From assembly GCF_001619985.1 (NCBI RefSeq), contig NW_017264195.1:1302001-1366000 (forward strand): a DNA stretch of 64,000 bases. Reading direction: 5' to 3'. A model generated the notes under the pieces. That model saw only the letters and a program-made list of their open reading frames with translations. It was not told the DNA's origin and did not search any database. This stretch comes from Xylona heveae TC161 (lineage: Eukaryota > Ascomycota > Xylonomycetes > Xylonales > Xylonaceae). Positions 1-57,980 of the stretch are shown piece by piece. A program made the translations under genes and the position numbers. Every line of letters starts with the position of its first letter. Positions within the stretch are counted from its first letter, which is position 1.

Positions 1-2324
1 GGGAAGCGACAAAGAAGACTATCCAACCACCAAGTTATTCGCCCGATGATGAAAGCTTGCGCTCCTTTGGTTCCGATATCCAGGATCCTGTACCGGGAGA
101 GGATACAGAACTTGCTGAGGAGCACAAGGGTGCTAGTTTCTTTATTCCCATGGTCAAGTGGCGGTTCGGCGGTCAAAAGAGCGACAGGAAACGTCGGCGT
201 GACTCCCGTAGAGAAGCATTCCGCATTCCTGGAAAAGTCCAGGAACGAAAACACCTAGTCAAGGATGAGCTGTCCGATCTGACTCAGACATTTAATGCCA
301 TGTCAGATGAACTCATGATGCAGTACGAACGTTTGGAGGAAAGGGTTAAGATTCGCACCCAGGAGCTGGAGTTGAGCAAAAAAGCTGCAGAGGCTGCAAA
401 TGAAAGCAAGACTCTTTTTATTGCCAATATTTCCCACGAGCTAAAGACTCCTCTGAACGGTATTCTTGGCATGTGTGCCGTTTGCATGCAAGAAGATGAT
501 CAATCCAAAATTCGACAATCGCTCAGGATCATATACAAATCTGGGGATCTTTTACTCCATCTTCTCAACGATCTCCTCACGTTTAGCAAAAATCAAATGG
601 GACAGCAGCTCAGCCTCGATGAACGAGAGTTTCGCCTTGCCGATATTAGCTCGCAAATCATGTCCATTTTCGACAAACAGGCGAAAGAAGGGCATATCAA
701 CCTGAATGTAACCTTTCTCGGACCAATGGAAGTTTTGGAAAAGAATGGTCCCGCCACTGGAGAGAAAGGTTACCATCCCATTGGATTAGGGCGGGTCAGA
801 GACATGTGTGTTTGGGGAGACCAGCATCGGATCCTTCAAGTGATTATCAATTTGGTGAATAACAGCCTAAAGTTTACTCCTCCGGGAGGCTCTGTAGAGC
901 TTCGCATCAAATGCCTTGGCGAAGTTGAAGAAAAGGCAGAAAGCCGCAAAGGCTCTGTGCAGTCAAGGTTTTCCAAGCAACTCTCCTCTCGAAACTCGAG
1001 AAAACGACACGATTCTGGGTCGAATTCGGTTGTCTCGGACCCCGAGAAGCCAAAGAACATGGACACTGTACTCTCCATCAACCCGATGGAAGGCCCTCGC
1101 CTCCCACCTTCAGCTGCGACCATTGAGCGATCGTCCTCGCCTCCGCTAATAAATGCGCGTACCTTGGTGTTTGAATTTGACATCGAAGACACCGGCCCTG
1201 GTATTCCTGAACATCTTCGTGATCGTATATTCGAGCCGTTTATGCAGGGTGATCTCGGTCTCAGCAGGAAGTACGGTGGAACAGGATTGGGACTCAGTAT
1301 TTGCTCCCAGCTTGCGACACTAATGAAAGGTTCAATTCACCTCAAAAGCGAAGAAGGGGTGGGAAGCACTTTCAGTATGAAGATTCCATTAAAGTATACG
1401 AGGGACCGCGCCAATAGTACCACTAGCTCGAGTGTGGACTTGCATTCTGGCCGCAACAGCGTCAACATGACTCGTGGCGTTGATGACTCTCCACCAAAGG
1501 GTGACGTTGATGATGCCAGTACCGCCATAGCGATTACAAACGCTCACAGTGCTACTACCTCTGTGGGGTCTGATACGGGTCCTCGACTGGTCGGATTCAG
1601 CCAGCCTTACTTTGCGCCGGATCCTCCCCTGGATAACGCAAAGGAACAGAAAGCTGCAATTGAACGTGCTACTGCCGAGGCATCAAGTCGATCGGGCCGT
1701 ATCAAGGTCCTTGTTGCAGAGGACAATATTGTCAATCAGGAAGTGGTTTTGCGCATGCTCAAGCTTGAAGACATCTACGGTTCGTGTCTCCCTCTTCACC
1801 TTAGATCATCCACATCATCATCATCGGTGCCTCTAGGCAGTTGCTAATAACCTCTTTTTCTCCTTGATAGATGTTACTGTCGCCAAAGATGGACAGGAAG
1901 CGCTTGATTTGGTCAAGGAAAGCATGGAGAAGAATCAACTATACAATCTGATCTTTATGGATATCCAAGTATGCTCACCGAAGACTGATTTTCTGATTTG
2001 GCCAGCACTAAAACATTCGTCTGTCAGATGCCCAACCTTGACGGACTTCAAAGCACAAGGCTTATTCGCTCAATCGGGTATTCGGCACCCATTGTGGCAC
2101 TTACTGCCTTTTCAGAGGAAAGTAATGTCAAAGAATGCATGGATTCTGGCATGAATTATTTCCTAGCCAAACCGATTCGACGACCTGCTCTGAAGCAAGT
2201 CTTGAAGACTTACTGCGCGCCCATCCCAGAGGTAGAAGAGGGCGAGAGCAGTGCGCATAATTCGAACACAAAGCCACCAGAGGATCGTCCACGGTCACCT
2301 GAGCCTTCACCTCTGTCCTCATGA
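1..2324 (+). CDS. sln1: Sln1-type hybrid histidine kinase, 5' end outside window
   Basis: This is the sensor kinase of the fungal osmotic-stress phosphorelay, which passes phosphate through Ypd1 to Ssk1 and the HOG MAP kinase cascade; it sits in the plasma membrane. The frame is already open at base 1, so the N-terminus and membrane segments lie upstream. Visible in order: the end of a HAMP linker ([17 protein letters not shown]), a coiled coil, the HisKA H-box [12 protein letters not shown] with the phospho-accepting His codon at 435-437, the N-box [14 protein letters not shown], the G-boxes DTGPGIPE and GGTGLGLS, a Ser-rich spacer, and a C-terminal receiver domain. Exons are 1-1779, 1871-1968 and 2028-2324. 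Splicing restores the receiver ([12 protein letters not shown], then FMDIQMPNLDG with the Asp codon at 1960-1962, and the conserved Lys in FLAKP). Family assignment is firm; Sln1 rather than another hybrid kinase class rests on overall layout. Confidence 0.9.
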
Positions 2325-3332
2325 ATGGCATTCGCCACGATGTTTCATTGGCAGCCACCTAACTCTGACCACTGACGCAGCGCTATTTCGCGAAAGCGTC
2401 TACGATAATATCGACCCGATTTGATCTATCATCAACCATCTTCACACACCATATCCTATCCTACACCGCCCTCACCTTTCGCACCATACCTTTGCGCTCT
2501 CTTTGAAGCGGTGCCTTGTTCATTCCCGCATACTTTTTAATCTCCCATGATTCTGTCTTTATCACTTTGCAAAATTGCAGTCATCTCATCAAAAATACTT
2601 TCGGTTATTCACTTTTTTCTTGTCCCCCAAAACAAAAGCCTCTGCCAGAATTTTTATCGACAAAATTGGGCGGTAGGCGTTTCTGGCGATTTCTGCCTCT
2701 CTCGATGAGAAGTCCCGCTGAGCACAGTAAAGGACAAACAAAAATGCAAGATTGGAGACACTGGAGATTTGTACTTTGTTTCATGTTTCTGTCCACCCCG
2801 GGCAAGAACAAGAATCCTGCTATGGGCCTTCTGGAGTCGCCAAAGCCGGGAACATCTTTTCTATTTCATTTATCTCTCGCGATTGTAGATGTCGATTCGA
2901 GTACGAGAGGATATATTCTGGGTTTCTTTTCTTTTATTTTTTTTTTTTCGGGCTGAAATAATAAGAGTTTTACAAAGCAACAAGGGCTGGGCATTTCATT
3001 TGACATTTCATGGCGTGGGCATTGTTTCTTGAGGGAATCATATCATTTCTTACATCTATCATCGTTGATCTTCATTATTTCCTCGAGTTTTTCCTTATCG
3101 TTCCCTTTTTCACTACAGATCATGATTTACGAACAGCCATTTTTAGCATTATTATATGCGACGGAATACGTCTCCATAGATAATACGGTTTTTCGTGGTC
3201 TATTCTATGTTCATTCGGATCAGATCTATCTTTTTTATGATCCTCACCGTCATCATCATCATCGTCATAACAATAATAACTTACAAGCTTGGCTGGGATT
3301 TGCTGAAATCTAATCAGTCGCGTACAAATCCT
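2325..3332. other. intergenic region between convergent genes
   Basis: This is 3' flanking DNA of both the histidine kinase gene (+) and the ferroportin-like gene (-). It is pyrimidine-rich with a T-run near 2936-2949 and a CATCAT/CGTCAT stretch near 3249-3270. Open frames here (for example 2516-2956) have no recognisable domain and are read as chance frames in the 3' untranslated region. Confidence 0.6.
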
Positions 3333-5517
3333 TTACACATCCTCTTCCCACTCATCTGACTGGCGCACGCGTTCCCAGCCTCGCCCACCATCCACTCCCG
3401 CAAAACCCCACCCCCTGCTATTCCCATGAGACAAACCCCTCTCACCATGATGATGATGATGAACCTTGAGGTTCAAACACCGCGGCATATGCAAGAGATG
3501 TCCCCTCCGCTGCCTGACAAACGCAGCATACAGCGCACTCGCAACCAAGACTGCCACCGCACTCATCAGCACAGGATACTTGAACTGGTCCGGCCGCGAA
3601 AAGATCAGCGTCGAGGCATACGACAACAGCTCAAAGCCATTCTGAAACGACGATTCCAGCGTCGAGAATCGCCCGCGGTTCTCCGGCTCGACTTCCTCCT
3701 GCACAATCATCTGCACGCACAGATCAAACGCCCAAAGCCCGACGCGGCTCACTATCACGCCTCCCACGAGTCCTGCCGCCGCCAGTGATGAAGCGGTCGC
3801 GCCATGCGAGCCAGCGCCCGAGAGAGACGCCGCCGCAGCAGCCAGACCAACCCATATTAGTTGCCAATTAATCCCCCAGAGTCCGGCGCGTGTGGGCCCA
3901 AGTCGCGCCATGATTTTGGGCGAGATCCATGTTGCTGAGATTTCGAAAACAACGGACACTGTGCGCATCAGACCAATGTGGCTCGACTGGTAGCCCACGG
4001 ACAAAAGGTAGGTGACCATTTGTCCGGAAAAGGACAGGACAGAGCAGTAAAGCAGTGCGAGGGCCATGGATGGTAGGAAGACTGGGTGGCGGAAGTAGAA
4101 GGCCAGAGAGCGGATAAGACTGTGTAGACCGCAGAGGTTGTGATTGTGATTGCGATTGCGATTGCGGTGTGTCTTGGGTTGGACGCGCGGTGAGGGATTT
4201 TCTGGGTGGTTGAATAGAGGGGAATGTTGGTCCGACGGATGTTGAGGAGCTGCGGCGGGTGTGTGTAGTGGGTCTTCGTGTGGGTGTGGTGAAGAGGAGG
4301 TTAGTTGGAGAGATGGCATGACGTTGTAGACCTGTGTGGAATATTAGTTGAGATTAAGAGAGAGAGAGAGAGGGAGAGAGGGAGTGTGGGAGAGAGACTA
4401 TGGGGGAGAGCTGTGTTGGATCAGGGTTGGAGGGATGCTTGATGGTGATACGCTAGAAGGGAGGGGAAAGATCATAATAAGAGGGAAAGGGAAAATGAAA
4501 GAGGGGCTTATGGGCTTACCTTGACAATGGCAAAATACTCAATAGCTACCGTTGCAAGATTCGATCCCAAAACGAAAAAGATCGCGATTTTGGTGGATAG
4601 ACCGTCCAGCAGCGAAATGGCTAGTGGTCCTGCAAGTTTACACAGCAGATCGATTCGCCGCATTTGGGAGTTGAGTACTATGACACGATTAGATAGATAC
4701 TTCCAAAAAGAAAGGTCTTCCTCTAAGCTTCACGCTGAGACTGGAATTGGCACTGGCTGAGGAGAAAGGAGGAGCAGCCCATGGACTCACCTCGGAGTAA
4801 TTCCTCGTCCTTCTCTGCGATGGTGACTACCTGTTGCGGGGAATCCACATTAGCGCTCATGGCTCTCAAATTAATCTTCCAAGGGTATCCATTGCTTTAC
4901 CCAGTCTCTTTCCACAGATACCAAATTCATGATAGATGCGAGCTTCTCGAAGCAGCCCAGTAGAGAAAGTACCACTAGAATGCATGATCGAGAGGTCAGG
5001 GAAGATGCCCAGCCTGACCATAGGACTATGAGTCCTACGCAGGAGACGATGACAGCAGTTCGCTGGACCACTATCGCGATCAAACATTAGCATATATAGC
5101 ATAGCATATATTTGGCACATTGTTCTCGTGGGATTCATAAGCAAAAGGAAAGAAATCCCAGGACATAACGGAGACTAGTAAAGAAAATCAAGGACAATTT
5201 AATGAGGGCATACAAATTGATAATCGAACGACTTTCAGACGATCCGTGGTGTCAATGTATCGTCCCACTGCGGGAGAAAATGCCACGGCGGAAGCAGCTC
5301 GCGCCAATGCATATGCTGAGGTTGGAAGAAGCGTTCCCGGGAAACATGCTGCCACGAATAGGATCGCGCCGAATTCAAAGGCGCGAGAGTTCCATGTCGA
5401 GAGAAAATGGGAAATGTATAGCCTGTGCTTGATGTCTGGTCTTGAAGTCGACTCCTGCTCGGGCTCAGAATGGACCATGATCTCCACTTCCTCTGAAGGA
5501 TCTTCTGGGTAGGCCAT
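3333..5517 (-). CDS. ferroportin-like (SLC40) metal exporter
   Basis: The product is a predicted polytopic membrane protein of the ferroportin family, whose animal and plant members export Fe2+ (some plant members move Co2+ or Ni2+). The N-terminal signature is clear: RLYISHFLSTWNSRAFEFG at about residues 32-50, followed by a membrane helix, then CFEKLASIMNLVSVERDW and MRRIDLLCKLAGPLAISLL, all family blocks. The last exon holds the C-terminal helical bundle (LLYCSVLSFSGQMVTYLL, GLWAFDLCVQMIVQE). Deduced exons: 5517-5214, 5070-4901, 4830-4791, 4677-4520 and 4331-3333, giving 556 residues. The 40-base third exon is small but its phase fits. Start is the ATG at 5517, the first in frame. The C-terminal tail has a His run near 3445-3460. 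Substrate and membrane (vacuole or plasma membrane) cannot be told from sequence. Confidence 0.85.
4340..4400. repeat. GA-rich microsatellite inside an intron
   Basis: A run of GA dinucleotides with interrupting G residues lies in the fourth intron (4519-4332) of the ferroportin-like gene. Read on the coding strand it is a CT-rich tract ahead of the acceptor, so it may serve as a polypyrimidine stretch. Confidence 0.7.
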
Positions 5518-6229
5518 TGATATGATTCGCCAAATTAATGGCTCCAGAGCAAATTGGTTTTAGCAGATAGTAGAAATACGGGGGAAAAAGAGGTTGCCCA
5601 AGCAATAGCAGTGTCAGTCGAGTTAGGCGATTGAGACGGCTTGGTTTTTCAGTTTCTCAATACATATGTAAATATGCATGGTTTCGGTTTTCAGATGACA
5701 AAGTTGCCATTGACTTTTACGACAGGCGGCCCCACTGCATTGTTGTCAGGAATATCCCAAATTTTGCCCATGAAGGTATTCAAAGTCAGGAATGTATCGA
5801 GCAGAAGGAGCCAGTAAACATTATGCAGTTCTGGTATATATGGTCTACAGTATCGGGTGACAGGCTTCCGGACTAAAGAGACGGCTCGGCCGGGAGACTA
5901 CTAGGAACGCCGACGACATGGAATCAGTGTCACTATCATAGCGTGGTTGGATTTGCAAAAAGTGTCAAATAGCTTATCATTTATGAGATACATAGATTTC
6001 ATGAACCCTCACATGTGCAGCTATGGACATCATTCTTAGACAGACTAGATAGTAAGGCCGAAGGGAACAAGCGTTATTGGAACGCAAAAGGAACGGAATT
6101 TGGCCTGTGAGTACATAGCCAGTATTGGAAGCGTGCAGATTTTCGTACATATTTCTATCTGATCGTGCGCAGTTTGTAAATCAGATCCTCACATTGCGCG
6201 ACAGAAGCATGGCTATCACGTGGGCCGGC
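5518..6229. promoter_or_regulatory. intergenic region, 5' side of ferroportin gene
   Basis: About 0.7 kb lies between the start of the ferroportin-like gene and the stop of the acyltransferase gene, both on the minus strand. It must hold the ferroportin promoter. I see no long supported frame and cannot assign a specific iron-responsive element. Confidence 0.5.
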
Positions 6230-7705
6230 TTAAATTTGCAATTGCTGCAGCAGGATCTGACGCACAAGCTGCAGGTATTGGCCAAGTGTCGAATCCGCAT
6301 GGTATGCCTGATTATAGGTCACGTCAAGCCTGATTTCTTCGTTGAAGGTGGTAAGATGGAAAATTGGCTGCGGCGTGGTCGAGTCGGCGGCAAGCCAAAC
6401 GTCTTGAAGCTTGATGTCCGCACCATAATTATTTTGCAAAATCCCATCCAGAGAGCCGATACTTGAAAGAATCGGGTCAGTAGACGTGACAGGCGCAGCC
6501 AAGAAGAGGTTGGCGAAATTCTCAAAAATGGGAGGGACCAATTGCTTGGTCTCAGGGTTTGTGTAAAGGCCATTGTAAAAATTCTTCAGCTGGGTCGCAA
6601 TGTCAAAGAAGTTTGTCGGATTAATCACCAGCGGCCATACGCTTTCGTAAAACGGAAGCGGTGTCGATTGGAACTGCTGCTCGATGAATTCTCTTGTATC
6701 GACTGCGACCACGGAGACATATTTTGCACCAGAATTGCTCATTTGTGCCGCCGCAGAAATCAAGGCCGCGTGTACGACTTCGGTCAAGCTGTAGCCGTTG
6801 GCTTTTGCCTTGGCAATGATTTGAGACGTTTCGCTCGCCGAGTACTTGCTCCGCTGTCGGGTCGAGCCAACAGGAACCACGCCAGCTTTGCTTACAGGGA
6901 CACCAATCGTGGGCATTTGGGCAGCCCAATCCGCAAGGATCTGCTGGGCCTTGAGCTCGTCTCCAGCTGTGGTCTGAGCCAGATCCGCGGCTACAGGGTA
7001 GGCTGGAGGCTGAAGCTTCTGCCCGAGCTGATTCTGGGAGACGAGCGGGATGGTGGCAGGCTGTGCCATTGCTCGAAGAAATTTGTCCCAAAGGAGGTGT
7101 ATGCCATGGTCATCAATGGCGCTATGGGTTGCTCGAATGACAAGTTCATTGCTTTCTGTCACAATGTACAAGACAGGATGATTGACCGGCTTCAAGCTGC
7201 TGAGCAACTGAGTCGCATTTGGCGCTGTCGAGTCGACGAAGACGGTCCTGGAGACCCAATCATCGCTATTGTAGTAATCATCCAGGCGAAGTACTTTGTT
7301 GACACCCTCCATGGAAGCCATGAGTTGCGGCATTGTCAATGCAAGCTGCTTCCACGCTCCTTTTGCAGCGTCATCGAGCTTTTGGCCCCCGGAGAGGCTG
7401 ATCTTGATCGCGGAAGTAAGTGCGAACTCTTCGACACCGAACGGAGCGCCCTTGACAGACATCCTTTGAAGACCTGCTTCAATAGGGTCCTCCCTCCGCT
7501 CATAAGTGTTCAAAGCTGTCAAATTCCACGCATACTGCTGCCCGACCGAGTCTCTCGGGGACAAGGCCAATGCCTGGACCCCGTCAAGGGGGAGCAGGGT
7601 GCAAAGTGCGAAGCCTAAGCATCTGAGGGGACGCATGCTGGAAGCAAGTCTTTTCAGAAGAAATAAGGAGTATAGTGCTAGAGACGGGGCGGCAAGTATT
7701 CCCAC
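6230..7705 (-). CDS. CAT/condensation-fold acyltransferase with signal peptide
   Basis: This intronless gene encodes a protein with the chloramphenicol-acetyltransferase-like fold used by NRPS condensation domains and by acyltransferases such as trichothecene Tri3. The key motif is HSAIDDHG at about residues 192-199, giving the catalytic HxxxD. The C-terminal block DVWLAADSTTPQPIFHLTTF resembles fungal Tri3-like proteins and lacks the plant BAHD DFGWG motif. The reading frame opens with an ATG at 7705 (491 residues); an in-frame ATG at 7636 gives a textbook signal peptide (MRPLR, then CLGFALCTLLPL, cleavage likely after VQALA) and I prefer it. Secretion is unexpected for a CoA- or carrier-dependent enzyme. 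No polyketide synthase, NRPS or P450 gene is nearby, so the substrate is unknown. Confidence 0.75.
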   Translation of the reverse strand: MGILAAPSLALYSLFLLKRLASSMRPLRCLGFALCTLLPLDGVQALALSPRDSVGQQYAWNLTALNTYERREDPIEAGLQRMSVKGAPFGVEEFALTSAIKISLSGGQKLDDAAKGAWKQLALTMPQLMASMEGVNKVLRLDDYYNSDDWVSRTVFVDSTAPNATQLLSSLKPVNHPVLYIVTESNELVIRATHSAIDDHGIHLLWDKFLRAMAQPATIPLVSQNQLGQKLQPPAYPVAADLAQTTAGDELKAQQILADWAAQMPTIGVPVSKAGVVPVGSTRQRSKYSASETSQIIAKAKANGYSLTEVVHAALISAAAQMSNSGAKYVSVVAVDTREFIEQQFQSTPLPFYESVWPLVINPTNFFDIATQLKNFYNGLYTNPETKQLVPPIFENFANLFLAAPVTSTDPILSSIGSLDGILQNNYGADIKLQDVWLAADSTTPQPIFHLTTFNEEIRLDVTYNQAYHADSTLGQYLQLVRQILLQQLQI

Positions 7706-18185: not shown

Positions 18186-21100
18186 TTTGTTTCCAGTATT
18201 AGGCACCGTGAGAGGGTGCAATAATGCGAGGATGTTTTACTGATCAAGCTTTGATGAGGTTATTGAGGCTACGTATTGAGACTCATCTTTCGGTTGCGAT
18301 ATATCTAGCGTGGACGTCATAGTGCGGTACACATTTATGCATCTCTAGCGACCGCGTACGAACCGTAGTTGGCTTGGTCTGGGGTAATACTGCAAGCAGT
18401 CAATGCTGGTGAACCATATGCTGAGGATATCATAACTGTCACTGATATGGGGTTTTTAATGGACTGTTAAATCTCAAGCAATTGAATATTCAACAATGCC
18501 GACTCATTCCTCCTTCCAGTTCACCTGCTTTAATCGACCCTCTGAAGTATCCCGTATTCCTTCGCATAGCAAAACTCTAGCTTAATATTTGCTTCATTCC
18601 TTTTCTCCCTCTATTTTTTTCTTATTTCGTATTTCTTTTTATCCTTTTATTATTTTTCCCTTCTCTGTCTTCCATATCTCCTTCTCCTTAATTCCATTTC
18701 CTTTTTTATCCGTATTTTTAATTCTTTCCATTTCCCATTTCCTATTCTTCAACCAGTATCCTCGACATGTCAAATAAACCACCCCGAGGACTATAACTCA
18801 TTTCACTCCTCTGCTGCAAACTTGCGTAGATCTTCCATTGGTATATCATCCAATGCCTTTTCATTCGTGGCACTCAGCACGACTCTAAGTCAGATTAGCA
18901 TTCCATTCTCTATCTTCTTTCTGTCTCCCCTTCTGTCTTTAGCTCTCCCGCTTTGTGTCTCCCCTCCCTTCTCTTCCTCCTCTATGCTTGTTTGCAATAC
19001 ATAACAAATACAAAAAAATCACATACCTTGGAACAACATCATCGTTATCACCCTTTCTTGCCAATAGTGCTTCCTTCCATCTACTCGCACAAAGACACCA
19101 TCTACACCCGCCCTTGAGCCCAATCGATCGTAGGTCGTTTCCGCGAGACGCAGAAAAATCAAGAAATTGATCCGTCAGGATTCCTATATTGTCAGTGAAT
19201 CAGTGACTCAGCTGTTTCATTATTTCCTTGTTTCCTTGTTCACTCTTCTTTCTCTTATTTTTCTGTTTTTTATTTTTCTTTTCTTTTCTTTTCTTTTCTT
19301 TTCTTTTTGTTTTCTTTTTGTTTTTTTGTTTTTTGTTTTGCTTTCTTTTTTCCCTTCTGGCTGTATTTTCATCCACTCCTCGCACTGTACACCCTTCCAC
19401 CACATCATGTACAATACACTATACACCATACGCTGAAACTGTAAACATACCAGCAACAGAATGATTCCCGACATCTCCACGTGGAGTCTCGCAATATCCC
19501 GATCTCGTAAACCCAGTCACTGGATTCAGCGAATGGACAGCCAGCGGCTTCTTGAATACTGGATCCAGATCTCATCGTTAGTGATTGCATCCATTGTTGA
19601 ACTGTCTTTGGGTGTAACACTGTAACACTTTAGCCGTGTATTGTCTGTTCTCATCCCATGTTCCTGTTTGACATGCTACATTGTCGTTGCATATTCCCAT
19701 ATTCCCATATTCTCATATATTCATAGGAACCATAACATACTTGGTATCTTCCTCCTCCTCTTAATCTCGTTTTACTTCTTTCTTTTATTTTTCTTTTCTC
19801 TTTTTATTTATATTTTTTGTTTTCTGTTTTCTGTTTTCTGTTTTCTCTTTTTATTTATTTATTTTGTTTTCTTTTCTTTTCATCTCATCTCATTTCATTT
19901 CATTTTATTCAACTTCATTATTTGTTTTCGAAGTACGGGAAGTGAGGTAGAAGAGAACTCAGAACTCAGAAAACAAAACCCAAAACCCAAAACCCAACGA
20001 ACCCTAACAAAAGAAACTTGAAAGGCAGGGCGCAGGGAAAAAGAGATGGGACAGAGTCAGACAGGTCACATACCATTCAAGCTCTTTGATCTTGCAGCCA
20101 TACTCTATGCCGTCCTGTGTTGATGAATTGATGAATCGATGATAGCGTTGACGGTGGACGGTGGACCTGTGGACCTGTGGTATACTGTATACTGTATACT
20201 GTATGACTGTATGACTGTATGTCCGTTGAAATATATCCGTTGACAATCTAAAAGTAGTGAGTAGTGATACAAGCGGGAGTTTAATATGTTATAACTTAAG
20301 TTACTTAACAGGTTAAAAGGTGGTGAGTCGTGAGTCGTGAGTCGTGACGTTATGACTTGCCATGGACCCATGGTGGAGTCGGGGTACGGTGGACTCTGTA
20401 GAGCTGGCCCTCGGCCCTAACTACCTTACCTATGGTAGGTAGGTAGGTATGATAGGTAAAATACTTAGCTTCCGCTGTTTACCTTACCTTGACTAAATAC
20501 CTAAGGTACCTACCCACCTACGTAAAGGTAAGCACCTTTTAATTATCTACAGTACCTCTGTACGCAGGCACGGGGGTCTTATGGGACGGACGGACTAGCT
20601 GCAAACCCAAGTCTCAACGCCCTTCGCCCTTCACCCTTCGCCCCTCGCCCCTCAACGCCCGCTCAAAAGCAGAGAAAAGAGAAAATCATATACAAGTCGA
20701 CGGGCATCGTAGAGCTTGGGTGTGATATATAGCTACCTTAAACCCGAGGTATATGGATAATATATTACAACCAAGATGAACGTACAACCTACTACAACCT
20801 ACAACTTAAAAAACAACCTACAACCTACAACCTACAGTATAAAACGACCTACAAATCAACTTTTACCTACAGAGTACCTTCAAGACACGATAAATCTACA
20901 ATCTACAATCTACATCGACAAAGACACAGAAGACGGGTTAGATAATAATCAAAAGGGCCTATAAAATCAAGACTTTACAGAAAAGCCTTCACAGAAAAGA
21001 CCTCACGTAGAAAAATCGTATTGATTCAATTTGTTCCTGGCTAATCGAATAAAAGGACGTCAAGGTAAAAACATATGTATGTATGCAACTGTTTCCGCGC

Positions 21101-49111: not shown

Positions 49112-52100
49112 CTATACAGCGTCTGCAGCACCGGCACCTCGGACTTTCGGTCCCGCCTTGACCAGGGCATCTTTGAGCAGGCGACTGACCTCCTTTCGGC
49201 GGGCAATTTTGGCTTGATAGCGTTGTAGATCTTCCGGGTCAAAAGACGCAGCAGCGACGCTTGCGGCGCGATAAGGAGAAGGTGACTGACCAGCATGTGA
49301 TCCCGAGACAGATCCCATGAATCCAGATTTTCGGAAAGACGAATTTGTCAGGGGTGTCTCTTGCAGCCCAGCAGATCCATTGACAGCACTGCCATTGATG
49401 GACGCAGACAATGGGTGCGCTCGAGGTGTACTTCTTGAGCTGTCAGGTGTGTAGAACAGGCCGGTGCCGCTCGTTCGCGGGGTTCCGTACGCGCCTGCGC
49501 CAGTACCAGGCGTACGCGGGGTCCGGCAAGCGCCGCGCGATCTGATCGATGAAGAGAGCGGGTGGTACGAGGACTGGGCCTGTGGAGGTGGACTCGACAT
49601 TCGGCTCCCACCAAACGGAGAAGATTCACGCGAGGATCCAGGCGCACTGCTGTTACTTGTGACCGAAGAGAAACGCAGCTTCCGCATTTGGTTCTCAAGC
49701 ACGTCAATGTCGCCCGATTTGCGCTCCACCATGCTCGTCATTTTGTTGATGGTGTTCATTACCGCTTCCATGGTGGGCTGAGCTTGCGGGCGGGATGTTG
49801 ACAATGCGCTACCGGTCATGGAAGGCGAAGGAGTAGCGCGTCCAGCACCCTGAGCGACAACCTTAGCCTTGAGCACGGAAATACCTTCTTCGACTTCAGT
49901 AAGAAGTTTTTGGAATTTCTGAAGGTCTCTACGGAGATCATGTTGCTGGACGGCTTGCTCGGCGCTGAGCGGGGCCGATCTGTGCATGGCAAGCTCGTCC
50001 GGGTCGGATCGAGCGTCGATGAGTTTCTTGATGTCGTGGTGTTTGGCTCGCAGCCGAACAAGATCTCGTTGCAGCTCGCGGCATGCGTTGAGTTTGCCCT
50101 GGACATCGTGGATACGACCTGATTCAAGATCCCTTTCTAGTTTGGTCTCGGTAAGGGTCAGGTCTTCAATCTCGATGAGGCACCAGCCTTCGGCATCCTC
50201 GAGGTCATCGCGGCTCCGCCCGCCTTCTTTGTAGTTCTCCGTATGGCCTTTAATAAAAGCTTCCAGCGAACGTGCATTGAGGCCGAGCGTGTCAATCATC
50301 GAGTTGATATCTCGGTACACGCGTTCGATTTGGCCGGGAATGCCGGGTTTTTCGACATGTCCAATGTAATCTTGGTGTGCAAGGAAAGGAGAAAGCTCCA
50401 AAGCCCCTTGAACGTCAGTCGAGAGTTCTTCCCGGACCTTTTCGTCTTCACGGTCGCTGAGCTCTTGCTCTTCTTCAGCCCTTCTTGCCAGTTCCGCAGT
50501 TCTTCTCTCTTCCGCTCTCTTCCGCTCCTCCTGTCTTTGAGCGAGATCGTCCGGAAGAGGGGGTTGCACAACCGTTCTTCGAGGCCCTGTCTTTTGCGAC
50601 GGCAGTCCAGACGTGCTGAGAGACGCAAAACCCTCAGCCCTTGTCTTGTCATTTTGTATGCTATTCCGGAACGGGCTTGGTGAGCGTGGACTGGCCTCGA
50701 GCGGCTTTGTGGGCTGCGCGAGCTTTGGTGGCTGTCCAAAACTTCCAAAGAGTGGCTTAAGTGGTGCTTGTTGCTGCTTTTGCTGCTGCTTCGGCTCTTG
50801 GAACCAGCCAGAAGTAGTTGGACTCTCCTCCGATCTGCCATACAAGCTCTGAGAGCTTTGAGCCTGATCATCGATGGGACTGAGATCCTTGCCGACGTCC
50901 ACACCGCTTCCTTCATCGTCAAAAGGCTCTTCTTCCCTCGATTCCGCCTCAGATTCGCGTCGAGCAGGCGACTCTTCCTCGGGTGACTGAGGCACAGACT
51001 CAGCTGTCTCTTGCGGCAGTGGTATATTGTTCGCAGAACTCCTGCGGACGGCTGGTGAAGACGCAAATGGGGAAGACCACGGCACCTCACTCTTTTCAGT
51101 AGCTGGTGTTTTAGCCGATCCTGGCGGCAACGAAGGTGACGGTATTGCTCTATCAACGATCGGGGTTTCCGGCTCCTCTGGTTCACGTTTAACCTCTGGC
51201 GACGAAGGTACTGAAACTGGCGGGGGTGTCGGCTCCTTGGGAGGCGGTGTTGGCTCCCTTCTCGGTTCTTCCACGGGCTTTTCCGTAGGTGGTTGCTCAA
51301 TCGAGTCCTTGACAGGTTCCTCGGGCGTTTCCGCCGGCTTCTCCGGCCCCTTCTCTTGTGGTTCCTCTTTTGGCTTCTCAGGCTCCTTTGCGGCTGGCTT
51401 GATGAATGAAAAGGGCGCTGAGGGCGTCGAGGGCTGGCCAAATATTGACGTGGGCTTACTACTTTGCACCGTAGCAGGTGTTGTTGACGTTTGTGCCTGC
51501 GTACCAAAGAGACCAGTAGTGGCGGGTGGCGCAGTAGGGAGGCCAAAAGTTGGCGCGGCTGGGGCAGCTGCCGGTGTTGTTGGTTCTGGCTCCTTGGGTG
51601 CAGGCTCAGCCGGGATGGCATCGCTGACATCTGCATCCATATCCGCTTCTGGGGCTTCGGACTCGGCCGATTTGGCTGTCGCGGCTTCACCAAGCACATT
51701 TCCAAACCCTGATCCAAACAAAGAGCCATCAGTTGAGGCAGGCTTTTGTGCGTCATCTTTTGCAGTATCATCTCCCTGGAAGGTTGAACCCAGCTTAAAG
51801 CCGCCACCAGATCCAAAAGCGCCGCCAGGCGTTTGGCCTGTCTTGTTACTAGCGCCAAAAGCGCTGTCGTTGGCAGTGGTGCCGGAGAATCCAGTTCCAG
51901 AAGTGCTTTGGCCAAAAATGCTGCCACCTGTACCTTGGTTTTGGGCAGCTGCAGCAAAGCCCCCTTTATTCGCAAATGATGCAAAGCCTGAGCCGGCGCT
52001 AGAAGCACCACTGCCAAAGATTCCTCCGCTGCCGGCCCCAGTAGAGCTTCCAAAAGGTTTAGGCGCTGAATTTGCACCAAGACCAAAACTGCTGGTCTGT

Positions 52101-54075
52101 CCAAACGCTGCACCACCTCCACCAGGTGACGTCGTAGATGCGGGAGCGCCCCATGGCGACGGTCGGTTTCCTAATCCTCCGGGGGTGCCAAAAGCGCCGC
52201 CCTGCGCAGGTGCCCCAAATGCCGTGGATGAGCCAAAGGTAGGCTTACCAAAACCTGGTGCTGCTGTTGGCGATGCTGTGTTATTGCTTCCCCATGGGCT
52301 CGCCTTGGCCCCCAAGCTAGCGGGCGAGCCAAAAGCGCCATTGGTAGCGGGCATGCTCGGAGAGCCAAAGGAAGGCGCAGAAGGTTTCCCAAAAGCTCCT
52401 GCGCCGCCAAAAGAAGAACTTGGAGCCGGGCCGCTGCCGAAACTTGACTGTCCAAAAATTGATTTTGTTGGTTGCGGACTGCTAGCCGCAGCGAATGGCG
52501 AGGCGCTTGCGGCGGGTTGTGGGGTTGCCTGAGCTGCCGCCTGCTGACCGCCGCCAACGATAGTGAGCTCCGGATATGCTGTTCCTTCCCGTACTGATTC
52601 GGAATAAACGAACCACCACGCCGACAGAACACCCTCGTTGTTGAGTACCATGAGCGCTGGCAGCGGTGTCTGTGACTGGTCAATTTCTTCACCGGGAATT
52701 GGACGATCAACCTTTTCCTTGGACGAGAGATCTAGAGCAACACCAATAGGAGACGTATCGGATGCCGTTTCCGACATGGGCAACTGCGCTCGTCGTTCAT
52801 CCTTTGCCATTCCAGTGAGGGTAAAGATGTTGGTAATTTCCCCAGCGGGTAGGTCGCTCGACAGGGGTACACTTGAGCTGGTGAAAAGATTGATATCAGG
52901 AGAAGCGGTAGAGGATACGATCAGGACATCTTGAAGGTTCGGAGGGAAATTTTCCATTCGAGCGATGAAGTGGTGCGGCGGAGAACGGGGGAGGCCAAAC
53001 GGTGGGCACGGGTCGACGAATTTTTGGAAGGCAAAGGATGATCGCTCCTTGTTGCTGGTTACAAGGTTATACGTAGATTCAGGAGTTTCTCCTTCCGGGG
53101 ACGACGTAGGGGTATGAATCGTAAGGAAAACAGACGTGTCGAGCCAGAAAATGGAAGAAACTATACGTCCAATTAGCCCTTTTCCCTTGATCTTGTTTCT
53201 CATTAGTGACATTGCCTTACCGTGTTGATCTCCTTCGAGGGCTGGAGGACGCGGAATCTGTGCCTTTCCGGCGCCATCGGGAGTCATTTGGTAGCATGTA
53301 CCGTCACCAAGACCAGCGACTAGCTGCTTGCCGCGCTTACTCCACGAGACGCAGCTCACACCACTTTTGAGAACCTGGCCACCCGGGCCGGTGACAAAAT
53401 TGCGCTCCTTGAGGTTGGCCATCAATAAGTCCCCAGACGTGGTAACCACCGCGAACAGTTCCGCCTTGTCGACCAACGGGTTGGGGGATAACGCGCGAAG
53501 CGCGGCACCATTGGTTGGGAGCTCAAACGCGGATTGAGTATCGCCCTGCATCAGTGCCTGAACATCGTAGACTGCTAGACCGCCTCCATTCTCTGCCGAT
53601 ATCACGAGATAATTTTCATCCGCGGAGAAGACGAGCTGCGATACGCGCATGCCCAAGTCAATTTTTAGCTGAGGCGAAAAGGGCTTGACAGCTTCGGAGC
53701 CTTCAGCTTTGAACGCTTGCCTAACAGCATCTGTTCCAGCAATGACAATCGCATCAGGTCCAGCAGCAGCTATTAAACCCTTTTTCGAAGCAATACTGAA
53801 TAAATTCGAGGTTGGAGGAGGAAGTGAATCTTCCGGCCAAGGGGAGGGTAATAAGCGGACTTTGGCGTCGCCTGCTAATGAAAGGAAGCCAAGTCCCTAT
53901 GTAGACGTCAGAGACAATGCGCATAATTTCTACATGGAAATCAAGAGGGCAATTTTACCTCTGTCAGAATTTCAGCCAGATCTGAGCCGGTTTGAATGGC
54001 AGGTCCAGAGGCGCTCCCGGGCATGGAGGCAGCAAAGGGAGAAGCCCCAGGAGAGCTTCCAAAGCTCAAAGCCAT
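49112..54075 (-). CDS. nup159: nucleoporin Nup159 (Nup214 homologue)
   Basis: This cytoplasmic-face nuclear pore protein recruits the DEAD-box helicase Dbp5 for mRNA export. The deduced product has 1613 residues from exons 54075-53959, 53896-53221 and 53160-49112. The N-terminus forms a beta-propeller (GLGFLSLAGDAKVRLLPSPW, RVSQLVFSADENYLVISAEN, SCVSWSKRGKQLVAGLGDGT). The middle is a long array of FG repeats (FGQSSFG, GAFGKP, FGSGFGN) followed by a Pro/Glu-rich acidic stretch. The C-terminal third has coiled coils (LTLTETKLERDLESGRIHDV, MERKSGDIDVLENQMRKL) that bind Nup82. The 60-base intron 53161-53220 is a multiple of three and free of stops, so the frame also reads through it; removing it restores the expected DQHVSSIFWL propeller sequence. 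Confidence 0.92.
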
Positions 54076-54441
54076 TATAGAAGTTGGAGATTGAGGCGGC
54101 TGATGTCGAAAAGAATGCGAAATGCTTCGAGCTATCGGAGAAGGAGAGGAGCGAGTATTGTTGACATTGAGCGTTACATGCGGTGAAAAGGAGTGTCGTC
54201 TGGGTGTCGTCGGACTCCCACTAAAGAGGTGAAACGTGCGGTTCAGAATCTTGACGACCTAGCTGCTCAAGCAGAGGTCATAATGTGGATGTACGCAGCT
54301 CTCGTGGGAGAGGTGGTGATGGAGGAACGGGTGAGTTTTCTTGTTGGTGTTTTTGGCTTCAACTTCAGCAAAGTAACTTAACTTAGTTGACTTGGTTGTT
54401 TTGCACTTTTTGGTCGTGCACGTGACCACTGCTGATCTGAG

Positions 54442-54555
54442 TGTGGTATTACATAACGCGTATTTAGATTTTGTTTAGTATAGTCATTTGTTAGCCATTC
54501 TCTATATATATCTTGCTAGCTAGCATAATTTACACAACTTAGGCACAATTCTATA
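54442..54555 (+). repeat. left LTR-like direct repeat
   Basis: 114 bases starting TGTGGTA and aligned over its whole length with the copy at 56499-56607 (about 89 percent identity over 109 aligned bases, plus one 5-base gap). Confidence 0.75.
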
Positions 54556-55021
54556 CGGAGTAATTGGTAGTAGTACAAAAAGCTCTTTTAACAGAAGAAA
54601 ACACTAAATATATCTTATTCTAGTAGTCCAAAGGCTTGATTACTTTTTAAGACTATTTAAGAGATAATTCTACCTCTAGAAGAGTTCTTTTAAGAGTTAA
54701 GACGGGTAGAAACTTTTTCTAAGGACAAAAAGAAAGTAGAGTTAGGACCTGTACGGTATACCACAGTCATCACACAATACTAGAATTTGTATAGCAAGTA
54801 GTGAGGATGATTTTATAGCTTTAGTCCCATTTCATGTCCAATAGCGTTCCTCATGTACATATCATGATATATGAAAGGACTAAATTGACTCTCGTGTAAA
54901 ACATCTATAATTAATCAATAACAAGCTTTTAAGATGGATAACAAGTATAACACCTCTCATTCATAACGTAATTGCATAAACAAACTCTAGAGATAATCAC
55001 CTGATAGTTAATTAACCCACC
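54556..55021. other. AT-rich non-coding interior next to left repeat
   Basis: About 470 AT-rich bases between the left repeat and the kinase stop codon. No open frame of note. It may be residual leader sequence of the LTR element or kinase 3' flank. Confidence 0.5.
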
Positions 55022-56227
55022 TCAGGAACTATGCCACTCCAAAGTAAATCCAAGTCTCTCGGGCTCATCCGAAGAAAGCAGACGAGGTAGTTCACACTTC
55101 TCCAAGTTCTGACAGAATGCTTTTTTCGAAAGGAAATCCTCTGTCAAGTAGGCTTGATCCACATTATAGCTGTTGCTGTTGGGCTCCCTGCCATTGGATT
55201 GTTCGGTGTTTGTCACCTTGCCATTCGTCTGGCACACCAATGTCCACCAGTCCCCAAAGCTAGACCATATCCCATTTATGATGCGGCATACAACCATGTG
55301 CAATTGAGTGATGAAGGTTGTGTCAGGTGGGGTTCCTTCCTGGTTGGTTCTGTAAGTAAGAAGCGTTGCAGTGTGTGCAGCCAATTCCACAACCGTAGCA
55401 TATTTGTTGTGCCAGCACTTGTCGATGATATCGTCAATCAGTGGATCACCATCTAGATTTGGAAATTCCATATTTTGCAAGAAGTCCACGACCTTAGGGC
55501 CATGCTCCTTAGAATCCTCGGTAAGGCATCGATCTTCATAAACCTCAAAGCCATAGTTTATCAAATAGTACAAGGAACCAAGGGCGAACTGCTCTGTTCT
55601 AGGACCCAGGAAGCCGGAAGTCCCACGTTGTCCTTGGTCCGTCTCGTTACCGTTGAGTATTCTTCCATACGGGGCCACACAGGCTTCGAAGTTTGTCCCG
55701 ATTTCTGCCGCACAATCAAAATCGGACAGTTTCAGCCGGTTGCCATCGAGCAGTATATTTTCAGGCCGTAGGTCACCATGAGCGAGATTGAGCGATTCGA
55801 GGAAAGCGACGGCTTGAGCAAGGTCATTAATCCATTCCTTTCGCAGGGACAGAGGCTCCAATTTTTCCACTTTAGTAACTATCCTTGTTTGACAATCCCG
55901 AATATGATTGTTTTGTATCCTAGCAGAAAGGGAGACATCTGGTGATGCAATCAATGGACGCACCAGTTAACTGCCAAGTGGGGCCGCACCTCTCATGTAC
56001 TCAAGGAAGATGCCATTGTCTGAGTAGAAAAAACACTGCACCACAGAGGGACATGGCGGATGTCGCGAGAAGATCTGATAGATTTCGAGTTCCCTATCAA
56101 ACTGCTCTCTCTCAAACTCTCCGGACTTTGGGACCTTGACCACGATGCAACGGTGGACTTTATAGACGTAGGAGATGGCTCCAAACCCGATCCAACGCAC
56201 ACCAGGAAATTGGCACTGGATAGACAT
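55022..56227 (-). CDS. divergent serine/threonine-type protein kinase
   Basis: A 384-residue kinase from exons 56227-55990 and 55938-55022, with a 51-base intron. Visible motifs: a Gly-loop-like GFGAISYVYKV, the ATP-anchoring Lys in IVVKVPK, the catalytic loop HGDLRPENILL (HGD in place of HRD, Asp and Asn kept), and DFD in place of DFG, still with the metal-binding Asp. APYG and GFLGPRTEQFALGSLYYLI fit the activation segment and the alpha-F helix Asp region, though the usual APE is altered. This matches a lineage-expanded group of fungal kinase-like proteins with unclear substrates. The C-terminal 130 residues have no domain I recognise. The frame is intact. It is the sole gene between the two LTR-like repeats, so it may be a captured or carried gene copy. 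Confidence 0.8.
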
Positions 56228-56498
56228 AACAGAACGACGTGAGAAGTGTTATCCTTCAAGAGTAGGTGTGGAAAAGAGCACTCTGTGTTCTAGGAGAGAG
56301 GTGAAATAAAGAGGGAGGAGGCCCGGGGAAATGAGGGGTCTCAATCGTCTAATGCATTCTGATTGGCTCAAGCTTTCTAATTGTCGGACCAGCAAAGTCT
56401 CATTTGTAGTTGTGCACTTTGAATAGATAGATATCACCAGGCGGACAAGCAACAAGGGTTCTTGAGGAGCTACGAGCCACGACCCTTTACAGTTGGTT

Positions 56499-56607
56499 TG
56501 TGGTACTACATAACAAGTATTTAGATTTTGTTTAGTCATTAGTTAGTCATCCTGTACATATATCTTGCTAGCCAGCATAATTTACACAACTCAGGCACAA
56601 TTCCACA
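56499..56607 (+). repeat. right LTR-like direct repeat
   Basis: 109 bases in the same orientation as the left copy, starting TGTGG and ending CCACA, followed at once by TGAG. Confidence 0.75.
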
Positions 56608-56934
56608 TGAGCTCGGGCCCTCCCTTTGCTCTCATTGGTTCGCGCTGACTGTAGAGCTTCAGGCACCGTCGGCGTCGTCACTTTGGAGAGAGAGAGAGAG
56701 TCCTAAGCTACGATTATCATCATCGCCTTTCATCTTCTCCAAAACACATCAACACCATCACCATCGTCGGTTTCTTCTGTCACTTCAGTGGCAGCACGAC
56801 CTGCAGATTTACCAAACGAAAGGTAAAACTGCACACCAACGCTCCGCTCTCACTCCCCATCTCCGGCGTGCGAGCTTAAACCACCACTTCCACTCATCAA
56901 CGCCCATTCATATCTATATCTCTCGTACGCCACC
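56608..56934. promoter_or_regulatory. promoter and leader of pup1
   Basis: 327 bases between the right LTR-like repeat and the Pup1 start, with a short GA run near 56690-56700 and CATCACC-rich leader. If the LTR block is an insertion, it landed just upstream of this essential gene's promoter. Confidence 0.5.
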
Positions 56935-57980
56935 ATGGTTGGCTTCGACTTCTCCAACCACAACCGGAATCTGGCCCTGCATGCCCGGGGTGTCCCTCTT
57001 CCCCAGGCTACTAGCACGGGTACTACCATTGTAGGATGCATATTTGACGGGGGTGTAGTTGTACGTATTCCCAAAAATCTTGAGCCAACCGCGGCTTTAG
57101 CTCCCGAATGGTCCATCTCTTGAGCTACAAATAAAAGTTATTCTCAAAGGATCATCTGCTAACACATCATGCCTACAGATTGCCGCCGATACTAGAGCCA
57201 CGAGCGGTCCCATTGTCGCTGACAAGGTACCTTCTTCTGCCCCACGCATTCACTCCTTCTCCAGAACCCATCTCCCGACGAAAAGACCCATAGAAACTAA
57301 CAACGCGTTTTCCGAAAAAATAGAACTGCGAGAAGTTGCACTACATTGCTCCACAAATCTGGTGCGCGGGTGCCGGAACCGCCGCCGACACGGAATTCAC
57401 CACGGCACTCATCTCATCGAACCTGGAATTGCACTCACTCAGCACCGGCCGGAAGCCTCGCGTCATAACATGCATGACGATGCTGAAGCAGCATCTGTTC
57501 AGATACCAGGGACATATCGGAGCTTATTTGGTCGTTGCCGGCGTGGATCCCACAGGAGTTGGACTCTTCACCGTGCACGCGCACGGAAGCACTGACAAGC
57601 TACCCTACGTGACAATGGGTAGTGGTTCATTGGCAGCCATGTCCGTTTTTGAGACGCAATGGAAGCCGGAGTTGACCCGGGACGAGGCCGTCAAGCTGTG
57701 CGCAAACGCCATCCAGGCCGGTATTTGGAACGATCTCGGTTCCGGATCCAACGTCGACGTCTGTGTCATCACCGAGAACAATTCGACCCTACTCCGAAAC
57801 TACATCACACCCAACGTGCGCGAGAAGAAACAGCGCAACTACCGCTTCCCCAGAGGCACAACGGCCGTGCTTAACGAGAAGGTTATCAAGCGCGAAGATA
57901 TCAGCAAGTACGTCACTGTGCATGAGCTCAAGGATGATTCGGAAACGGCAGTGGCAGAGAAGATGGAGTTGGATGCTTAG
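56935..57980 (+). CDS. pup1: 20S proteasome beta-2 subunit Pup1
   Basis: This is the catalytic subunit with trypsin-like activity in the 20S core. The 276-residue precursor has a propeptide ([19 protein letters not shown]...) cleaved before Thr30 in [14 protein letters not shown]; that Thr becomes the N-terminal nucleophile. Other catalytic features follow: [15 protein letters not shown] (with the conserved Asp and Lys) and [13 protein letters not shown]. Exons are 56935-57060, 57179-57226 and 57324-57980, all in phase 0. Start context CACCATGG is strong. The C-terminal extension after the catalytic fold matches the beta-2 arm that wraps beta-3. Confidence 0.95.

Follow-up and report, generated by a model that had tools for sequence, protein, structure and literature searches.

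The window analysed here is a 64-kb stretch of DNA (C3:1302001-1366000) within a genome that was searched over 24.28 Mb and 17 contigs and that, from its gene content, is probably that of a filamentous ascomycete. Between two divergent genes, one NUP159-like and the other PUP1-like, the window contains a block of 2,166 bp (54442-56607) in which a protein kinase gene is enclosed by two short LTR-like repeats. The distance to the inferred start codon of the neighbouring gene is 366 bp on the left and 327 bp on the right. The features of the locus, in window coordinates, are as follows:

49112-54075, minus strand: NUP159-like gene, left neighbour (main ORF 49112-53656 plus an inferred first exon from 54075)
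54438-54441: TGAG, left outer flank, candidate target-site duplication
54442-54555, plus strand: left LTR-like repeat, 114 nt, with C-to-T changes when compared with the right copy
54556-54758: AT-rich interior stretch with RIP-like bias, no match elsewhere in the genome
54759-54954, plus strand: RIP-like copy of a gene end on contig C5, 82% to C5:528317-528500
55022-56227, minus strand: kinase gene, ATG at 56227, coding for 384 aa once the predicted intron is spliced out
56227-55990, minus strand: kinase exon 1
55989-55939, minus strand: predicted kinase intron, 51 nt, phase 1, GT...AG, with a TTAAC branch-like motif
55938-55022, minus strand: kinase exon 2
56437-56473, plus strand: short stretch resembling contig C2, 36/38 (95%) identical to C2:2209195-2209232 (L040 4696-4733)
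56499-56607, plus strand: right LTR-like repeat, 109 nt
56608-56611: TGAG, right outer flank, candidate target-site duplication
56935-57980, plus strand: right neighbour, PUP1-like gene for a proteasome beta subunit, with an inferred start

The left neighbour matches the NUP159/214 propeller (3.7e-99) and the right neighbour the Pfam Proteasome model (8.9e-34, on 57336-57980); we take this proteasome beta subunit to be PUP1. The A. nidulans Nup159 is AN2086 (PMC8399174) and the A. niger proteasome beta 2c is An11g04620 (PMC7804941), and locus tags of both NUP159 and PUP1 for one species were not found in the literature (PMC3944740 gives no tag).

The initial annotation described an intact, spliced kinase gene between the repeats, and that description is confirmed for a 384-aa gene with one predicted intron. 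The intron was predicted from the reading frame and an alignment of paralogues, and an in-frame TAA lies inside its branch-like motif. The encoded protein belongs to the protein kinase superfamily by its match to Pfam Pkinase (PF00069, E 1.5e-13, 51.2 bits against a cut-off of 31.7), and it contains VVKVPK with its lysine, HGDLRPEN, and DFD in place of DFG, all of which we take to be the kinase motifs. The FunK1 fungal kinase Pfam model (presumably PF17667) gave no match to the protein up to E 0.1, searches of solved structures and NCBIfam returned distant kinases alone (best TTK, 5.5e-8), and no relatives were confirmed in bacterial or archaeal genome contigs or in viral contigs.

The repeats themselves are much as first described: they share one orientation and are about 89% identical, with 97 of 109 aligned columns matching, 12 substitutions and one 5-nt gap. 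They match each other at E 5e-31 in the whole-genome BLAST DNA search, and with low-complexity filtering and a threshold of E 1e-4, no other DNA self-match is found in the window. The reported TGTGG...CCACA termini hold for the complete right copy and for the start of the left copy, but not for the left copy's end, which reads CTATA and, judged by its letters, is a C-to-T form of CCACA; at 7 of the 12 differences, a C in the right repeat faces a T in the left. The pair has the form expected of LTR retrotransposon termini, two repeats in one orientation with TG...CA ends, although the end of the left copy is changed to TATA.

The interior of the block is a mosaic. The AT-rich stretch beside the left repeat has a TA/AT ratio of 2.89 and a (CA+TG)/(AC+GT) ratio of 0.32, whereas the kinase part (0.64 and 1.30, respectively) is not RIP-like. 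The adjoining C5-derived piece corresponds to the end of the coding sequence of a 643-aa ORF, with its final codons and the flank 3' to them. This ORF lacks a Pfam match up to E 0.1. Among the 24 substitutions that separate the window copy from C5, 15 lie in the RIP direction, 4 in the reverse direction and 5 in neither. From these base changes, the left part of the block appears to be repeat-mutated, while the kinase and the right repeat do not. A reading of 54556-54758 as the upstream coding part of the same C5 gene was rejected (RIP-aware alignment score 48, shuffle mean 50). On C5 itself (L039, C5:523500-533400, 4476-5657), the 3' half of the ORF is partly duplicated alongside (85% over 243 nt and 71% over 130 nt), giving three copies of the gene end in all, counting the piece inside the kinase block. 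The 38-nt counterpart on C2 lies about 1.4 kb upstream of an ORF (L040 6127-7203) with a borderline APH match (23.6 bits, cut-off 23.2). Elsewhere in the window, a dense tandem-repeat run with several 7-nt units occupies 19246-21006 (TA/AT 1.56 at 20001-21000).

The repeat is a tiny dispersed family, for which two strong copies and one degenerate solo copy were found in 24.3 Mb. A whole-genome DNA search with the repeat returned two places, both within the window pair. A 20-nt core pattern allowing up to 3 mismatches matched 6 places genome-wide, against 4 for its reversed control, and one of these six, at C1:868033, extends to 74% over 82 nt. A second core pattern, at the same tolerance, matched three places (the window pair and the C1 copy, the latter with no mismatch) against zero for the reversed control, and a genome-wide search with a 3'-half pattern recovered the window pair alone. 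The counts are to be read as lower bounds, since DNA searches miss diverged copies: the C1 copy, used as a query, matched itself alone and missed even the window pair. This C1 copy (L045 4860-4972) precedes a 420-aa ORF by about 0.35-0.45 kb, and we take the product of that ORF to resemble a TFIIH subunit; the copy is degraded and has no recognisable flank duplication. We regard it as solo because, within 5 kb, the C1 locus has in common with the window the repeat, plus simple-sequence-like matches elsewhere, and nothing more. The possibility that the repeats are a common interspersed sequence, which was named at the outset as one that would refute the proposal, is not borne out by these searches. 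The chance that two of three copies would lie within 2.1 kb of each other in one orientation is about 2.5e-4, a figure that undetected copies would raise, and pairing of the repeats by chance is unlikely.

The identical four bases previously noted outside both ends are present, as TGAG at 54438-54441 and at 56608-56611, a 4/4 match across the pair that is expected by chance once in 256. Considered singly, the right copy is flanked by TGGTT/TGAGC, with no duplication, and the left copy by CTGAG/CGGAG, a 4/5 match, so that an exact duplication of 4 or 5 bp is seen around neither copy by itself. From the flanking letters, insertion of the repeat pair as one unit would fit best, and solo insertion of the left repeat agrees with its 4/5 match. 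Moreover, the common outer TGAG is no proof that repeats and interior arrived together, because recombination into a solo copy would keep TGAG. The claim that the block entered as one unit survives in part: the exact TGAG across the pair and a pairing unlikely to be chance speak for it, while the weakness of a 4-bp match and the 4/5 flanks of the left copy speak against it. If a single block insertion did take place, the uninterrupted site would read ...CTGATCTGAG to CTCGGG... with one TGAG.

As a positive control for LTR retrotransposon signals, the block was compared with a Copia-type element on contig C11 of the same genome. This degraded element (L043, C11:410500-420400, 1210-6397) contains the one RVT_2 match found in the genome (E 4e-29, 7 stops), and its 252-nt terminal repeats are flanked by TAACC on both sides, a 5-bp target duplication. 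Directly after its 5' repeat lies the primer site GGTTATGAGCCTGG, 13/14 to an initiator-type tRNA-Met, and before its 3' repeat lies the purine tract TAAAGAGGTG, with purines at 8 of 10 positions. The tRNA-Met used as the primer query is, judging by its features, presumably of the initiator type; the Copia primer site is an initiator-tRNA half. The kinase block was scanned with 14-mers at offsets 0-9 inside the repeats, with the initiator tRNA as the primer tested, and the best match in either orientation was 8/14, which is chance level (random stretches averaged 8.4/14, with at least 10 in 10%). A TGGTAG located 9 nt inside the left repeat matches the 3' end of the initiator tRNA at 8/12 positions when counted by eye and is not above chance in the scan. 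A purine tract is likewise absent, both before the right repeat in the plus orientation (5/10 and 5/12 purines) and in the minus orientation of the block (4/12); this absence argues against a block of the present form having been integrated through reverse transcription. Such signals would also set the orientation of the element, on which the earlier suggestion of a kinase antisense to it depends.

Reverse transcriptase models returned no match in the block, in line with the initial statement that it holds no pol: the single RVT_2 and 32 RVT_1 matches of the genome all lie elsewhere. The initial view of the kinase as retrotransposon cargo fares worse, given an initiator-tRNA primer site no better than chance and a missing purine tract where the Copia control shows both; the kinase probably did not enter by this route, which is disfavoured. 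As for the RVT_1 matches, 27 of 32 contain stops and 26 of 32 fall in one cluster per contig, with spans up to 35 kb (C1 1.31-1.35, C2 1.21-1.24, C3 0.566-0.586, C5 0.478-0.486, C6 0.80-0.81, C9 0.41-0.43, C11 0.42-0.45, C14 0.647-0.660 and C16 0.26-0.29 Mb); these clusters are perhaps centromeric or subtelomeric repeat islands.

To place the kinase among its relatives, exon 2 was used as a query and returned 26 kinase matches, namely the window kinase and 25 others, weak ones included (E up to 1); the closest other kinase is 40% over residues 38-202. The repeat was found by blastn at 0 of the 25 other loci with a kinase-like match, each taken with 1.5 kb on both sides, contrary to the expectation that further kinase copies would be bounded by it. 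A flanking pair of direct repeats of at least 28 nt was likewise found at 0 of 8 other kinase loci tested, whereas the window locus, included as a control, had its pair detected; seven of those eight have no direct repeats, and the eighth, L012, has a 13-nt tandem array. These counts do not support the suggested LTR-borne spread of the kinases. The 51-nt intron is missing in 11 of 11 tblastn kinase matches that span its site (L010-L014, L016, L021, L028, L030, L032 and L034), and it may have been gained later in this gene, in which case its presence tells little about how the kinase arrived. The intron is therefore a weak argument against reverse transcription, for which the initial annotation had used it.

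Several known systems offer partial likenesses. Gene-bearing TRIMs resemble the block in their short LTRs, their host sequence inside (some with more than one host gene) and their absence of retrotransposon proteins, which in the block holds as to reverse transcriptase, by RVT_1 and RVT_2 genome-wide. In the available text of the plant survey, however, the 30 gene-bearing TRIMs hold exon fragments without introns, have 5-bp duplications in 30/30 cases and occur in at least two copies in 28/30 (PMC4717578), whereas the kinase block has a whole gene with a predicted intron, a single copy and a 4-bp flank match. At 2,166 bp it also exceeds the survey's size limit of 1,500 bp, and the copies to be set against TRIM criteria are one pair and the degenerate C1 solo without recognisable duplication. 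A 4-bp duplication does not by itself argue against an LTR element, since TRIMs are given 4-6 bp in the same text (PMC4717578). Maize Bs1 also has an LTR pair around captured host sequence, but in the text available it captured exons only (PMC4717578), unlike the kinase block with its predicted intron and lack of detected element signals. Gene-capture routes described in the accessible part of one account are transduction, by which full-length genes are possible, and abnormal template switching (PMC13317346). The C11 Copia element shares with the block LTR-type terminal repeats and partial degradation; its repeats are unrelated, and it differs further in its 5-bp TAACC duplication, primer site, purine tract and pol remnant. 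Among other fungi, Coccidioides transposable elements lie preferentially near kinase genes (PMC5872316, available text), and Paracoccidioides kinases are enriched in non-syntenic regions, with FunK1 diversity ascribed to lineage-specific duplication (PMC3203195, available text). These cases are alike in their proximity to transposable elements and non-syntenic setting, but they are statistical associations, and the window kinase has no FunK1 match. No fungal LTR-bounded kinase appeared among the literature matches listed, by their titles and the starts of their abstracts, although one could be in print.

The reading that we tentatively favour, at a probability of about 0.42, is that the repeats are relict LTRs around a kinase that was brought in at the DNA level, through recombination or insertion. 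The repeat pair with its common TGAG would go back to one LTR-type insertion in the NUP159-like/PUP1-like intergenic region, and the kinase, rather than being reverse-transcribed as cargo, would have followed a DNA-level route. As a conjecture, a DNA circle carrying one repeat and the kinase could have crossed into a solo repeat, adding the second repeat while keeping the outer TGAG; other DNA, such as the C5-derived fragment, would have arrived along with the kinase. The pairing of so rare a family and its TGAG argue for this reading, as do the primer-site and purine-tract results set against Copia and a mosaic interior in which the C5 piece is RIP-directed (15 vs 4) and the kinase part is not RIP-like. 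It is weakened by an interior that abuts both repeats at TG/CA-type ends and shows no recognisable element remnant, where a later insertion would be expected to leave one, by the lack of a kinase donor locus among those found, by the 1-in-256 flank match and the left copy's fit to solo insertion, and by a missing primer site that was judged with the initiator tRNA alone as primer. Close behind, though unlikely, is the reading that the kinase belongs to the NUP159-PUP1 interval as a resident gene, with two LTR relicts of the same family inserted independently on either side of it. The left copy's flanks, the lack of an initiator-tRNA primer site or purine tract inside the block, the deep paralogy of a kinase that is not RIP-like (closest relative 40%, over part of its length) and the existence of a solo copy on C1 all suit residency, but the proximity of two of three copies in one orientation, the right copy's unduplicated flanks and the exact TGAG across the pair do not.

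Improbable by comparison is a non-autonomous LTR retrotransposon with the kinase as cargo, integrated once and mobilised by enzymes acting in trans. Such an element would account for the repeats, the TGAG on both outer sides, the absence of reverse transcriptase and the intact gene; a 4-bp duplication would lie within the TRIM range (PMC4717578, available text), and plant retrotransposons can transduce full-length genes (PMC13317346, available text). Against it stand the signals that the Copia control has and the block lacks in either orientation, the failure of genome-wide searches to find the block, or a kinase together with the repeat, a second time, and the 5 bp that this genome's Copia duplicates where the block's flanks match over 4. 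It is quite improbable that the repeats are not LTRs at all, but a small repeat of another kind or a locally copied, duplicated regulatory segment; a length of only about 110 nt and a position upstream of both neighbours' inferred start codons, with the C1 relative also upstream of an ORF, point that way, while the coincidence of TG...CA-type ends with the homology borders and the solo relative on another contig point to LTRs.

The evidence pointing away from retrotransposon cargo is useful in itself, and the repeat borders with their matching outer flanks provide a precise, testable junction. The broader proposal, in which an LTR-bounded block containing a complete kinase gene and its predicted intron was brought into a divergent housekeeping promoter region, either as retrotransposon cargo or through LTR-mediated recombination, is doubtful. 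The available texts of PMC3203195 and PMC5872316 name no vehicle for the dispersal of fungal kinases, and if the proposal is true, an LTR-bounded block would represent a concrete travel route for these dispersed genes.
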